NCBI RefSeq assembly: GCF_004114615.1
Contig: NZ_CP035300.1
Span: 2,790,001-2,854,000 of the forward strand
DNA: 64,000 nucleotides
Direction of reading: 5' to 3'
From: Dyella sp. M7H15-1
GTDB taxonomy: Bacteria > Pseudomonadota > Gammaproteobacteria > Xanthomonadales > Rhodanobacteraceae
Shown here: one piece after another, positions 48,114-52,775 of the stretch
How the letters are laid out: each line of letters begins with the position of its first letter
How positions within the stretch are numbered: the stretch's first letter is position 1
The notes under the pieces: model-generated
Told to the model about the DNA's origin: nothing
Database searches by the model: none
The model's input: the letters and a program-made list of their open reading frames with translations, nothing else
Made by a program: the position numbers and the translations under genes

Positions 48114-49121
48114 TCAGAACGACATGTCGAACGCAACTTCACCTTGCACGCCAACCTGGTAAGCCGACACGCGACGTTCGAAAAAGTTGGTGACTTCCTG
48201 CACATCCTGCAGATCCATGAAGTCGAACGGATTCTTGGCGCCGTACTTCTTGGGCAGGTCGAGCTGGGTCAGACGCTGATCGGCGCAGTATTCCAGATAC
48301 TGGCGCATTTCCTTCGCCGACAGGCCCGCCACGCCGCCGGAAAGCACGTCCTCGGCAAATTGCGTCTCGCAGGCGATGGCCTCTTCTAGCATGGCCTCGA
48401 TCTGTCCGCGCATGTCTTCATCAAACAGATCCGGTTCTTCCGCACGTACCTTGCGCACCACTTCGAACGCAAACGCCATATGTCCGGACTCGTCGCGGAA
48501 CACCCAGTTGGTGCCCGAAGCCAAGCCGTGCAGCAAGCCACGCGAGCGCAAGAAGTACACGTAGGCGAACGCGGCAAAGAAGAACAATCCTTCGATGCAC
48601 GCCGCGAAGCAGATCAGATTGAGCAGGAACTGCCGGCGTTGTTCACGCATTTCCAGGCGCTGCAGATTCTGGATGGAGTCGATCCATTTGAAGCAGAACG
48701 CACCCTTCTGTTTGATCGACGGGATGTTCTCGATGGCTGCAAACGCCTTGTTGCGTTCGTTCGGATCGGGAATATAGGTATCAAGCAGGGTGAGGTAGAA
48801 CTGCACGTGCAGCGCTTCCTCGAACAACTGACGCGACAAATACATGCGCGCTTCCGGTGCGTTGATGTGCTGGTACAGGTTCAGCACTAGGTTGTTCGCC
48901 ACGATGGTGTCGCCGGTGGCGAAGAAAGCCACCAGGCGGTGAATAAGGTGGCGGTCCGCATCGGTCATCTTCGACTTCAGGTCGGTGACGTCGAGCGAGA
49001 AATCGACTTCCTCCACCGTCCAGGTGTTCTTGATCGCGTTGCGATACATTTCGTAGAACTCGGGGTAGCGCATGGGGCGCAGGGTGAGTTCGAAGCCGGG
49101 GTCGAGGATGTGTTCGGACAT
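48114..49121 (-). CDS. nrdB: Class Ia ribonucleotide reductase beta subunit NrdB
   Basis: This 335-residue subunit carries the diiron-tyrosyl radical site. The iron-binding helices are visible as LIHRLVAFFATGDTIVANN, SRQLFEEALHVQFY and later NWVFRDESGHMAFAFEVV. The catalytic radical tyrosine and C-terminal tail (YQVGVQGEVAFDMSF) are in place. It lies downstream of nrdA on the same strand with a 317-base gap. Length and motifs fit the NrdB family that pairs with NrdA containing an ATP cone. Confidence 0.95.
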   Translation of the reverse strand: MSEHILDPGFELTLRPMRYPEFYEMYRNAIKNTWTVEEVDFSLDVTDLKSKMTDADRHLIHRLVAFFATGDTIVANNLVLNLYQHINAPEARMYLSRQLFEEALHVQFYLTLLDTYIPDPNERNKAFAAIENIPSIKQKGAFCFKWIDSIQNLQRLEMREQRRQFLLNLICFAACIEGLFFFAAFAYVYFLRSRGLLHGLASGTNWVFRDESGHMAFAFEVVRKVRAEEPDLFDEDMRGQIEAMLEEAIACETQFAEDVLSGGVAGLSAKEMRQYLEYCADQRLTQLDLPKKYGAKNPFDFMDLQDVQEVTNFFERRVSAYQVGVQGEVAFDMSF

Positions 49122-49438: not shown

Positions 49439-51946
49439 TTACTGACAGGCCTCGCAATACTCCGGATTCTCCAACGAGCAAAAGACCGCAGCTGTTGCTT
49501 CTTCCTGTGCATTGGGTGTGGGTGCTGCGGCAACTGTCGTTGTCACCGTCGTCTTCGCAATCTTCGTCGCCGGCCGCGAGCGCAGGTAGTACGTGGTTTT
49601 CACCCCCGACTTCCACGCATACATGTACATCGAGCTGAGCTGACCGATGTTCGGATTCTCCATGAATAAGTTCAGCGACTGACTCTGGTCGATATACGCG
49701 CCGCGTGCCGCAGCCAGATCGATCAGCGCCTTCTGCGGCAGTTCCCACACGGTGCGATAGATGGTGCGCAGGCGTTCCGGAATGGCAGCGATACCTTGGA
49801 TCGAACCTTCCGCTAGCTTGATCGCATCGCGGATTTCCGGTGTCCACAGGCCCAGCGTCTTCAGTTCTTCCACCAGGTAGCGGTTCACCACCAGGAAGTC
49901 GCCCGACAGCGTTTCGCGCTTGAACAGGTTGCTGACCTGCGGCTCGATGCATTCGTAGCAGCCGGCGATCGAGGCGATGGTTGCGGTCGGCGCAATGGCG
50001 ATCAGCAGCGAGTTGCGCAGGCCCTTGGCCTTGATCGCCGCGCGCAGAGCATCCCAGCGTGTCGCATCGTGCTGCTGGGAATGGGGCCAGTAGTCGAACT
50101 GCAGCTCGCCGTTGGCGGCACGGCTTTCCTCGAAGCCCGGATGCGCGCCATGCTGTTCGGTCAGCGCGTTCGACTGCGATAGCGCGTTGAAATAGATCTC
50201 TTCCGCAATGCGCGTGGACAACTCCTGTGCTTGGGCTGAATCGAACGGCAGGCGCAACTTGAAGAACACGTCCTGCAAACCCATCACGCCCAGGCCCACC
50301 GGACGCCACTTGCGATTGGCGGTGGCGGCGGTGTCGATCGGGTAGAAGTTGAGATCGATCACACGATCGAGCTGGCGCACTGCCGTGCGTACCGTGGTGG
50401 CGAGCTTGGCGAAATCGAACGTGCCATCCACTACGTGACGAGCCAAATTGATCGAGCCCAGGTTGCACACCGCCGTCTCGCCGGCGTTGGTCACTTCCAG
50501 GATCTCGGTGCACAGGTTCGAGAGGTGGATGACGTTCTCGGTCTTGGCGGTCTGGTTACTGGTAGCGTTGCTGCGGTCTTTGAAAGTCATCCAACCGTTG
50601 CCGGTCTGCGCCAGTGTGCGCAGCATGCGTGCGTACAGCTCGCGCGCCTTCACCGTTTTCACGGCAAGACCTTCGGCTTCGGCCTTGTGATAAGCGCGAT
50701 CGAATGCTTCGCCCCAGGAGTCGACAAAATGCGGCACGATCTTGGGATCGAACAGTGACCAGTTGCCGTCGTGCTCGACGCGGCGCATGAATTCGTCGGG
50801 AATCCAGTTGGCCAGGTTGAGGTTGTGCGTGCGGCGTGCTTCGTCGCCGGTGTTGTCGCGCAGTTCGAGGAATTCCTCGATGTCCGCGTGCCATGGCTCC
50901 AGGTACACGCAGGCGGCGCCCTTGCGCTTGCCACCCTGGTTCACCGCGGCGACGGAGGCATCCAGCGTCTTCAGCCACGGCACCAGGCCGTTGGAGTGAC
51001 CGTTGGTGCCCTTGATCAGCGAGCCGCGCGAACGCACGCGCGAATAGGCCAGGCCGATGCCGCCGGCGAACTTGCTGAGCTTGGCGACGTCGCCGTATTT
51101 CTCGTAAATCGATTCCAGCGAATCGGTAGGCGAATCGAGCAGGAAGCAGGAGCTGAGCTGTTCGTGCGCCGTGCCGGCGTTGAACAGGGTCGGTGAGCTG
51201 GCGATGTATTCCAGCGATGACAGCAGGCGATAAAGTTCCAGCGTCTCGGTAATCTCGCTACCGCCCAGCGCGCAGGCAATGCGCATGAAAAAATATTGTG
51301 GCGTTTCGATCACCTTGCGCAGTTGCGGGTGACGCAACAGATAGCGGTCATACACGGTGCGCAGGCCGAAGTATTCAAAGCGGCGGGTGGCTAGTGGATC
51401 GATCGCATCGTTGAGCTTGCGCGCGTTGGCGGCAACGAAATCACGCAAACGTGCGTTGACGATGCCCAGCTCGGTACCGCGTGCGATGGATTGCGAGAAG
51501 CTCTGGATTTCCTGGCCGCTCACTTCCTTGTCGATAAAGGCACCGAGCAGGCGTGCGGCGAGCTGGCCGTATTCGGGTTCTTCCGCGGTCAGTGCGGCCG
51601 AAGTGCGGATCGAAAGCTGGTCCAGCTCCTGCGTGGTGGCGCCGTCGTACAGGCCGCCGATGGTCTTCAGCGCCACGCGCAGCGGATCGACCGCATGCAG
51701 GCCCTCGGCGCTGCGGGTCACCGCGCGCACGATCTTGTTGACATCGACGATCTCATGGCTGCCGTTGCGCTTGGTCACGCGCATCTGGCCGGGGCTGTGG
51801 GGGGGCGTCAGTGTGAAGGGTGCTTCAGCGGTAGCGGGCATCGTTGCGTGGTTGGCAGTGGCCGGCGCATGGGCGTCGGCGGGAAGGACGGACGAGTCCA
51901 CGCGGGCGTCGGCGCGCTCGCGCGATTCGGTATCGATAGGTTGCAT
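49439..51946 (-). CDS. nrdA: Class Ia ribonucleotide reductase alpha subunit NrdA
   Basis: This 835-residue catalytic subunit reduces ribonucleoside diphosphates. The N-terminal ATP-cone VTKRNGSHEIVDVNKIVRAV is at about 57-76. The catalytic region has SSCFLLDSPTDSLES and GGIGLAYSRVRSRGSLI, plus NAGETAVCNLGSINLARHV and a C-terminal redox cysteine pair (ENPEYCEACQ). An unusually long N-terminal extension of about 55 residues is rich in Ala, Arg and Pro. A GGAGCG ribosome-binding site precedes the ATG at 51946. A cobalamin riboswitch lies 217 bases upstream, so expression is probably lowered when B12 is available. Confidence 0.95.
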   Translation of the reverse strand: MQPIDTESRERADARVDSSVLPADAHAPATANHATMPATAEAPFTLTPPHSPGQMRVTKRNGSHEIVDVNKIVRAVTRSAEGLHAVDPLRVALKTIGGLYDGATTQELDQLSIRTSAALTAEEPEYGQLAARLLGAFIDKEVSGQEIQSFSQSIARGTELGIVNARLRDFVAANARKLNDAIDPLATRRFEYFGLRTVYDRYLLRHPQLRKVIETPQYFFMRIACALGGSEITETLELYRLLSSLEYIASSPTLFNAGTAHEQLSSCFLLDSPTDSLESIYEKYGDVAKLSKFAGGIGLAYSRVRSRGSLIKGTNGHSNGLVPWLKTLDASVAAVNQGGKRKGAACVYLEPWHADIEEFLELRDNTGDEARRTHNLNLANWIPDEFMRRVEHDGNWSLFDPKIVPHFVDSWGEAFDRAYHKAEAEGLAVKTVKARELYARMLRTLAQTGNGWMTFKDRSNATSNQTAKTENVIHLSNLCTEILEVTNAGETAVCNLGSINLARHVVDGTFDFAKLATTVRTAVRQLDRVIDLNFYPIDTAATANRKWRPVGLGVMGLQDVFFKLRLPFDSAQAQELSTRIAEEIYFNALSQSNALTEQHGAHPGFEESRAANGELQFDYWPHSQQHDATRWDALRAAIKAKGLRNSLLIAIAPTATIASIAGCYECIEPQVSNLFKRETLSGDFLVVNRYLVEELKTLGLWTPEIRDAIKLAEGSIQGIAAIPERLRTIYRTVWELPQKALIDLAAARGAYIDQSQSLNLFMENPNIGQLSSMYMYAWKSGVKTTYYLRSRPATKIAKTTVTTTVAAAPTPNAQEEATAAVFCSLENPEYCEACQ

Positions 51947-52100
51947 GTTGGGCGCTCCGGGCTGTGGAGCTGTCCTGGGCCGGACTTCTCGGGTCCGGTT
52001 CGTTCGGGACGAGCTCCAGATTTCAACCGCCTGCTCCCACGCGCAGGGCTGACGTGGCGGTTGCCGCGGTAGGTTGCATCACACGGTTACGGACATCCGC

Positions 52101-52146
52101 GTCATGCGACCCGCCTCTTCGCGGAGGCCGTCACTTTTGGCATGAC
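52101..52146 (-). promoter_or_regulatory. Candidate expression-platform hairpin of the B12 riboswitch
   Basis: Between the riboswitch and nrdA, arms GTCATGC (52101-52107) and GCATGAC (52140-52146) enclose a second stem GCCTC/GAGGC (52113-52117, 52124-52128). The 13-base sequence TGCGACCCGCCTC at 52105-52117 occurs again at 52197-52209 within the aptamer region. It could therefore pair alternatively with the same partner, the type of mutually exclusive folding a switch needs. No long T-run follows the hairpin on the minus strand, so rho-dependent or translational control is more likely than simple intrinsic termination. Confidence 0.45.
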
Positions 52147-52162
52147 ACTCCGGCCACGCCGC

Positions 52163-52345
52163 GTCGGCAGGTCTTCGGACTTGCGGACATGGGTCTTGCG
52201 ACCCGCCTCATCGTCCTGCTTCCCGGCACCCCCTTGGGCCAGTGCACGATGGGCTTTCGTTTCCGCTTACCGCTGCGGGGCAGTCCCGGATTTACACCGG
52301 ATTCCCTCAAGCCGTCCTCGAAACAGTCCGAGAGTGGCGGCCGAC
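52163..52345 (-). ncRNA. Cobalamin (B12) riboswitch upstream of nrdA
   Basis: Read on the minus strand, the conserved cobalamin-aptamer elements occur in order. They are GGGAATCCGGTG and AAATCCGGGACTGCCCCGC, then AGCGGTAAGCGGAAACGAAAG, a variable loop with CACTGG and GGGAAGCAGGACGATGAGGCGG, and finally AAGTCCGAAGACCTGCC. A GCCGAC/GTCGGC pairing at the two ends (52340-52345 with 52163-52168) closes helix P1. The B12-box sequence GCCTGCC-type block and the CCGCAGCGGTAA block are intact. Position and orientation point to control of nrdA-nrdB. Confidence 0.93.
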
Positions 52346-52475
52346 GGGACACAACATATCGGGGTGGCGATGATCGGTCAACCCAATAACTTGTGGATAA
52401 GCCAGTGGATAAGCCGCGGGAAGTCAGACGGGGTGCGGCCTGCGGGAATTTCGTGATTTTTGGGTATCAACCCGG

Positions 52476-52775
52476 TTACTGAACCACCGCAATCACAATC
52501 GCCAGCCACATCAGGATCATGCCTGCGGCAAAGGTCCGGCGGGCCGGGACAATCCGCTCGAAGCCGTCTTCCGGCACGGGGGTGGTGATTAGCCAGATCG
52601 TCGAACCCAGGGCCCCAAGGCTGAGGAAGGCCAAGCAGACCACCAGGATATCGAGCGCCTTCCAGGGGATGGGCTCATGGACACCCCAGTAGCCCAGAAA
52701 AGCCATGCCCATGGCCGACGTCGTGGCGGAGGCGGAACAAAGTCCGACGACCGAACCGGTGGGTGCGCGCATCAC
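52476..52775 (-). CDS. Small membrane protein, function unknown
   Basis: This 99-residue protein has three likely membrane segments: GLCSASATTSAMGMAFLGYWG, ALDILVVCLAFLSLGALGST and TFAAGMILMWLAIVIAVVQ. I do not recognise the family. It lies 130 bases upstream of the B12 riboswitch on the same strand, but the riboswitch begins after it, so it is probably a separate transcript. Its codon use resembles that of its neighbours, supporting a real gene. Confidence 0.6.
   Translation of the reverse strand: MMRAPTGSVVGLCSASATTSAMGMAFLGYWGVHEPIPWKALDILVVCLAFLSLGALGSTIWLITTPVPEDGFERIVPARRTFAAGMILMWLAIVIAVVQ

Follow-up and report, generated by a model that had tools for sequence, protein, structure and literature searches.

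A cobalamin riboswitch ahead of the class I ribonucleotide reductase genes of Dyella sp. M7H15-1 and its co-occurrence with NrdJ in the Xanthomonadales

The closest described system is the nrdABS operon of Streptomyces coelicolor, for which a B12 riboswitch is attributed to Borovok et al. 2006 in the excerpted text of three papers that cite it (PMC3293853, PMC4991794, PMC5962746). A circuit combining a B12 riboswitch, nrdAB and NrdJ is already of a known kind. Members of the cobalamin riboswitch class contain a kissing loop between L5 and L13 (excerpts of PMC10653944 and PMC9600662), and the A. halodurans cobT riboswitch is an activating corrinoid riboswitch according to the excerpt of PMC10653944.

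The window (the whole 64-kb stretch of DNA analysed) belongs to a host genome of a single 3.52 Mb contig. A cmscan search of the window returned one match at or above its gathering score, and this to one Rfam family only, the cobalamin riboswitch RF00174, on the minus strand at 52360-52149 (95.8 bits, gathering score 31.5, E 1.3e-22). The match covers the full model (positions 1-189/189) at approximately three times the gathering score. It is followed, after a gap of about 200 nt, by an ORF at 49439..51946 (minus strand) that matches the class I alpha subunit NrdA (TIGR02506 NrdE_NrdA, 728.5 bits, cut-off 341.05), with a putative Shine-Dalgarno GGAG at 51955..51958 on the same strand. The NrdA proteins of Dyella mobilis and D. 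flava share 94% identity with that of the window over the best segment. Further along the minus strand, at 48114..49121, lies an nrdB-like gene for the beta subunit, whose best model, NF005550, is reached at 263.5 bits, below the cut-off of 309. Neither class Ib model is satisfied by the nrd genes of the window (TIGR04170, 242.6 of 750 bits; TIGR04171, 69.4 of 355 bits). A preliminary description of this DNA had placed a cobalamin riboswitch ahead of a B12-independent class I nrdA, and the covariance search bears this out; the span it gave, 51947-52345, takes in nearly the whole leader, although the model match starts 15 nt further upstream. The nrdAB leader is thus a cobalamin riboswitch of known kind, and well placed.

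The same description had predicted a B12-dependent NrdJ elsewhere in the genome, and one was found, in an ORF of 715 aa scoring 590.5 bits against TIGR02504 (cut-off 399.95). A covariance search of 14 kb around this nrdJ (locus L065) gave no RF00174 match, and one NrdR-like box upstream of it scores 13/16. Elsewhere in the host genome RF00174 is matched once more, ahead of a TonB-dependent receptor gene. A PduO-type adenosyltransferase (203.9 bits, cut-off 108.45) could produce the cofactor; no match to a CobO-type adenosyltransferase was found in the genome. MetH exceeds its cut-off and MetE has no match in the genome, so that the cell may need B12 in any case. A cobyric acid synthase is also encoded (G000:C1:3131167-3132576, L224), and no other cobalamin gene was seen among the ten ORFs scanned beside it. 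Taken together, the MetH and MetE results, the adenosyltransferases and the cobyric acid synthase suggest that the host is a B12 user, and probably one that salvages the vitamin. The cobyric acid synthase gene adjoins aspS and ruvA, as if it were the remnant of a lost pathway. The match to host metH extends over two adjacent open frames (G000:C1:307630-311237; L225, L226), which cover model positions 2-327 and 320-1182.

For comparison, 38 stretches upstream of relatives' nrdA were combined with the window, and 36 leaders were parsed by pattern. Those left out were L076 and L083, which lack a core match, and L088, which has two; the covariance model detects the aptamer in L076 and not in L083. 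The window contains the promoter-like site TTGACC-17-TATGTT at 52353..52381 (minus strand), a match to consensus rather than proof of a promoter, which is the sole such site within 51800-52600 (mean of 0.1 in shuffles). A looser pattern (TTGAC, then TA...T) stands just 5' of the aptamer in 36/36 leaders. As the site ends at the foot of the aptamer, transcription is predicted to start there. Two NrdR-like boxes on the minus strand span this site with a spacing of 32 bp: box 1, CCACAAGTTATTGGGT (52381..52396), and box 2, CCCCGATATGTTGTGT (52349..52364), which overlaps the -10. Each scores 12/16 against a palindromic consensus, a score shared by four 16-mers of the window and exceeded by none. 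In 31/36 leaders the two best hits are separated by 30-33 bp, and the second-ranked one reaches a score of 10 or more. Boxes of the NrdR regulon occur in pairs about three helical turns apart. Here such a pair is found together with an NrdR encoded in the same genome (202.6 bits, cut-off 124.65), and by this consensus and spacing nrdAB would belong to the NrdR regulon. A DnaA-box-like 9-mer, TTATCCACA (52392..52400, minus strand), and a near-match, TTATCCACT (52412-52404, minus strand), were also noted. A DnaA-box-like 9-mer is present in 16/36 leaders; because it overlaps NrdR-like box 1, it may be nothing beyond that box.

The region between aptamer and nrdA was examined in those 26 leaders for which the start of nrdA had been assigned. 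These were aligned, and 22 of them make up alignment A1, from which the longer L081, L082, L084 and L091 are excluded. Three minus-strand hairpins were named: HP0 (52139..52160), directly 3' of the aptamer; HP-A (52108..52132), proximal and P13-like; and HP-B (52030..52047), CCTGC(GCGTGGGA)GCAGG, distal and L13-like. In this structure 88.8% of the cells of A1 pair vs 82.3% in shuffles, and 49 cells are changed on both sides, compared with 16.4 for shuffled and no more than 17 for slid versions; for further pair types, 38/500 shuffles do at least as well. A closer inspection reveals that HP0 supplies 40 of these 49 cells (7/9 of its pairs show changes on both sides), HP-A six, the HP-B inner stem two and the HP-B outer stem one. 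Covariation therefore backs mainly HP0, and HP-B is backed by conservation: its inner stem is paired in 22/22 sequences and its outer stem pairs in 73.6% of cells. The aptamer element P5-L5 CTGCCCCGCAG (52273..52283, minus strand), which supplies the loop for kissing with L13 in riboswitches of this class, is invariant in 36/36 leaders, partly by construction, since a similar pattern had selected them. Both downstream loops are usually complementary to it. The HP-A loop is CGCGGG in most aligned relatives and CGCGAA in the window, where most of the complementarity is lost and a weak match remains. The HP-B loop is usually GCGCGGGA, complementary to the CCCCGC of L5; in the window the HP-B stem is kept, and pairing of its loop with L5 would include one G-U. 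HP-B is therefore the likelier partner of L5 in the host. The leader of one relative (L077, G014) carries an insertion of ~260 nt with long inverted-repeat ends in the HP-A region, between aptamer and nrdA, with HP-B intact; this may be a REP-type element.

To place the locus among its relatives, the best 80 genomes by NrdA match were surveyed, a sample which is not random, with loci assigned to the Xanthomonadales by taxon name or otherwise by place in an NrdA tree. By covariance model, RF00174 is found upstream of nrdA in 49 and absent in 26, two of the latter (L146, L166) being counted with only ~0.5 kb of upstream sequence. The other five (L123, L160, L161, L164, L173) are unscorable, as the contig begins too near nrdA. 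The Xanthomonadales account for 57 loci, of which 56 are scorable, and 44/56 have the switch before nrdA. The arrangement had been called unusual for this bacterial group in the preliminary description, which these counts contradict: it is common in the Xanthomonadales. Moreover, switch and NrdJ go together within the order. Both are present in 42 scorable genomes, the switch only in two, NrdJ only in one and neither in 11. In other words, NrdJ accompanies 42/44 switches and is missing in 11/12 genomes without one (Fisher p 6e-9, a value that ignores kinship); L131 was scored as NrdJ-positive on a match in pieces below the cut-off. Among the 19 scorable genomes from outside the order, five have the switch before nrdA, all with NrdJ; 12 have NrdJ only and two neither (p = 1). 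Across the best-80 list, then, the switch goes with NrdJ (47/49), and the converse holds inside the order only.

The exceptions within the order are Stenotrophomonas sp. ISL-67 (L151), which has NrdJ without the switch, and L120 and L156, both titled MAG, where the switch is present but NrdJ gave no match. On a quick NrdA tree of 64 rows, drawn from the 75 scorable loci, the riboswitch label requires at least three changes, two of them forced by starred branches. Its switch-less Xanthomonadales fall into two groups, a starred clade of 10 Stenotrophomonas and the pair L144/L148, which would mean two losses within the order provided that the unstarred forks separating them are correct. With so few independent losses, the co-occurrence of switch and NrdJ rests on few events. 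At L124:2077-2373 (-) and L156:2147-2388 (-), a second, divergent cobalamin riboswitch is arranged back-to-back with that of nrdA. Eight Stenotrophomonas genomes with neither NrdJ nor switch (G094, G098, G099, G102-G104, G106, G107) have an extra frame of 823-923 aa that resembles a reductase alpha subunit and matches weakly.

A second set of 61 genomes, host included, shares some assemblies with the best-80 list (e.g. L071 = L105), and the tallies were not summed. Counted by eye, at least 40 of the 61 have a switch on the same strand as, and no more than ~1.1 kb from, an NrdA match, although the NrdA match of one of these (G043) is weak at 220 bits. No NrdA match was obtained in 12 genomes. 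Nine have a full or partial NrdA match and no neighbouring switch among the matches listed, from which weak ones may be missing. Of these nine, G008 and G052 have broken contigs and G023 has its switch downstream, leaving G021, G042, G044, G051, G054 and G057. G021 is a counter-case, having NrdJ and, by covariance model, no RF00174 in ~1.7 kb upstream of the NrdA match. G044, with no NrdJ over the cut-off and no switch at nrdA among the matches listed, fits joint loss. In several genomes NrdJ is split at profile position 281-282 by an intein-like in-frame insertion of ~370 codons, in an open frame of ~1100 aa (G003, G013, G015, G026, G030, G032 and G059; also G061, G074, G075, G082, G086, G089 and G108, some of which are the same assemblies). 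NrdA likewise occurs in unusually long open frames at G022:C2:2992-5883 (1358 aa) and in G030:C35 (1701 aa); in the former, an interruption of the match near profile position 150 suggests an NrdA intein.

Very probably, adenosylcobalamin turns nrdAB down in the host and NrdJ takes over, where we infer ligand, direction and level of control from sequence. The nrdAB operon would be transcribed from a promoter with paired NrdR-like boxes, into an mRNA that starts with the riboswitch. When plentiful, adenosylcobalamin would bind the aptamer; L5 would then form a kissing contact with a P13-type hairpin of the leader, nrdAB expression would fall, and deoxynucleotide synthesis would be left to NrdJ, itself a user of this cofactor. 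Under B12 shortage, the switch would open and the B12-independent enzyme would be made. The single terminator-like site given by a scan is HP-A read backwards, on the plus strand (mean of 0.5 in shuffles), and the nrdA strand yielded no intrinsic terminator. Intrinsic termination is therefore not favoured, and a translation block or Rho-type termination is likelier. Energy folds of 25/26 leaders, which excluded the aptamer and L087 (no recognised Shine-Dalgarno site) and are blind to a kissing loop, gave no consistent Shine-Dalgarno sequestration, with mean unpaired chances of the site of 0.00-0.74 (window 0.68) and no common partner. A leader peptide was considered, as TGA often occurs 3' of HP-B, and rejected because the upstream open frame has no common start or length.

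Two other accounts of the locus can be weighed against repression by adenosylcobalamin. The switch might be decaying in the host lineage and no longer control nrdAB, given that the host genome is among the smaller of its genus, that the cell may always need B12 and that the proximal L13 loop is mutated, from the usual CGCGGG to CGCGAA. Neither MetE nor a CobO-type adenosyltransferase was matched in the genome, and the aptamer score of 95.8 bits is at the low end for nrdA-adjacent aptamers among the matches listed. Decay is nonetheless improbable: the aptamer still fills the model with a score threefold the cut-off, the stem of HP-B is preserved together with a loop able to pair with L5 through one G-U, and both the promoter-like site and the pair of NrdR-like boxes remain intact.

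A reversal of sign is less probable still, and we give it almost no weight. Here the switch would activate nrdAB when B12 is present, as activating corrinoid riboswitches such as that of A. halodurans cobT do exist (excerpt of PMC10653944). Activation by B12 would be hard to rationalise metabolically for an isozyme that does not need the vitamin, and both the P. megaterium metE switch (same excerpt) and the Streptomyces nrdABS switch (as cited in the excerpt of PMC4991794) are repressing. Moreover, the loss of the switch together with NrdJ in relatives fits repression.

Repression by adenosylcobalamin leaves room for an elaboration of the expression platform, which we put forward only tentatively and think rather doubtful: two, sometimes three, serial L13-type hairpins could each pair with the single aptamer L5, which would be handed over from the proximal to the distal one, or for which both would compete. 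In the handover variant, the proximal hairpin may act early, during transcription, and the distal hairpin at a place closer to the ribosome site. Hairpins were counted over 230 nt 3' of the aptamer, a stretch that can reach into nrdA. At least two with L5-complementary loops occur in 30/36 leaders (13.7% in shuffles) and in 37/48 leaders of the best-80 list (14.6%), 48 of its 49 switch-bearing leaders being counted and L134 unparsed; the pattern was chosen after the sequences had been viewed, and related leaders are counted many times. Such loops are also easy to find in G+C-rich DNA, which counts against the proposal, and because L5 is invariant, covariation cannot probe its kissing with the loops. 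The layout is not specific to nrdA, an idea that was rejected on 40 other riboswitch leaders fetched from the relatives, of which 37 were parsed. Nine of these have an nrdA-type L5, six adjoining a MetE match and the others taken as metE by eye. At least two hairpins were seen in 5/9 (shuffles 16.2%), or 6/9 when GGNGG loops are included (19.3%), and a distal CGCGGG or CGTGGG hairpin in 9/9. Leaders with a longer L5 gave 12/28 (shuffles 7.1%), or 15/28 with GGNGG (9.6%). By these sequence counts, some metE and some TonB-receptor (btuB-like) leaders of relatives thus appear to share a twin-type layout. The candidate twin L13 hairpins are the only part of the arrangement that is possibly new. 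Titles and abstract openings of the open-licence literature mention neither an nrdA riboswitch in Xanthomonadales nor a double L13; we make no claim as to whether either is unpublished.

These data indicate that a riboswitch choice between a B12-free and a B12-using reductase is a common state in the Xanthomonadales, where switch and NrdJ tend toward joint loss, and they make the order a setting outside actinobacteria in which the idea of isozyme choice can be tested. The twin L13 hairpins, if true, would be a new detail of how cobalamin riboswitches communicate with their expression platforms. As in Streptomyces coelicolor, which belongs to a different phylum from the host, a cobalamin riboswitch stands before class I nrdA and NrdJ is encoded elsewhere in the genome. 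The Streptomyces nrdABS switch is reported, in the excerpts cited above, to act on transcription, whereas the scan of the nrdA strand in the host gave no intrinsic terminator. The expected role of L5 resembles that in the Priestia megaterium metE, env8 and E. coli btuB riboswitches, in which L5-L13 kissing couples the ligand to the expression platform; the excerpt of PMC10653944 describes one P13 hairpin for these, in contrast to the two or more L5-complementary hairpins of most nrdA leaders examined. Nearer to the host, the metE riboswitches of relatives (e.g. L190, L193, L197) are likewise predicted to put a B12-independent isozyme under B12 control. Their leaders show, by eye, a possible UUCCUC/GAGGAA pairing over the Shine-Dalgarno that was not noticed in the nrdA leaders, yet the two share the L5 CTGCCCCGCAG and L13-like hairpins.
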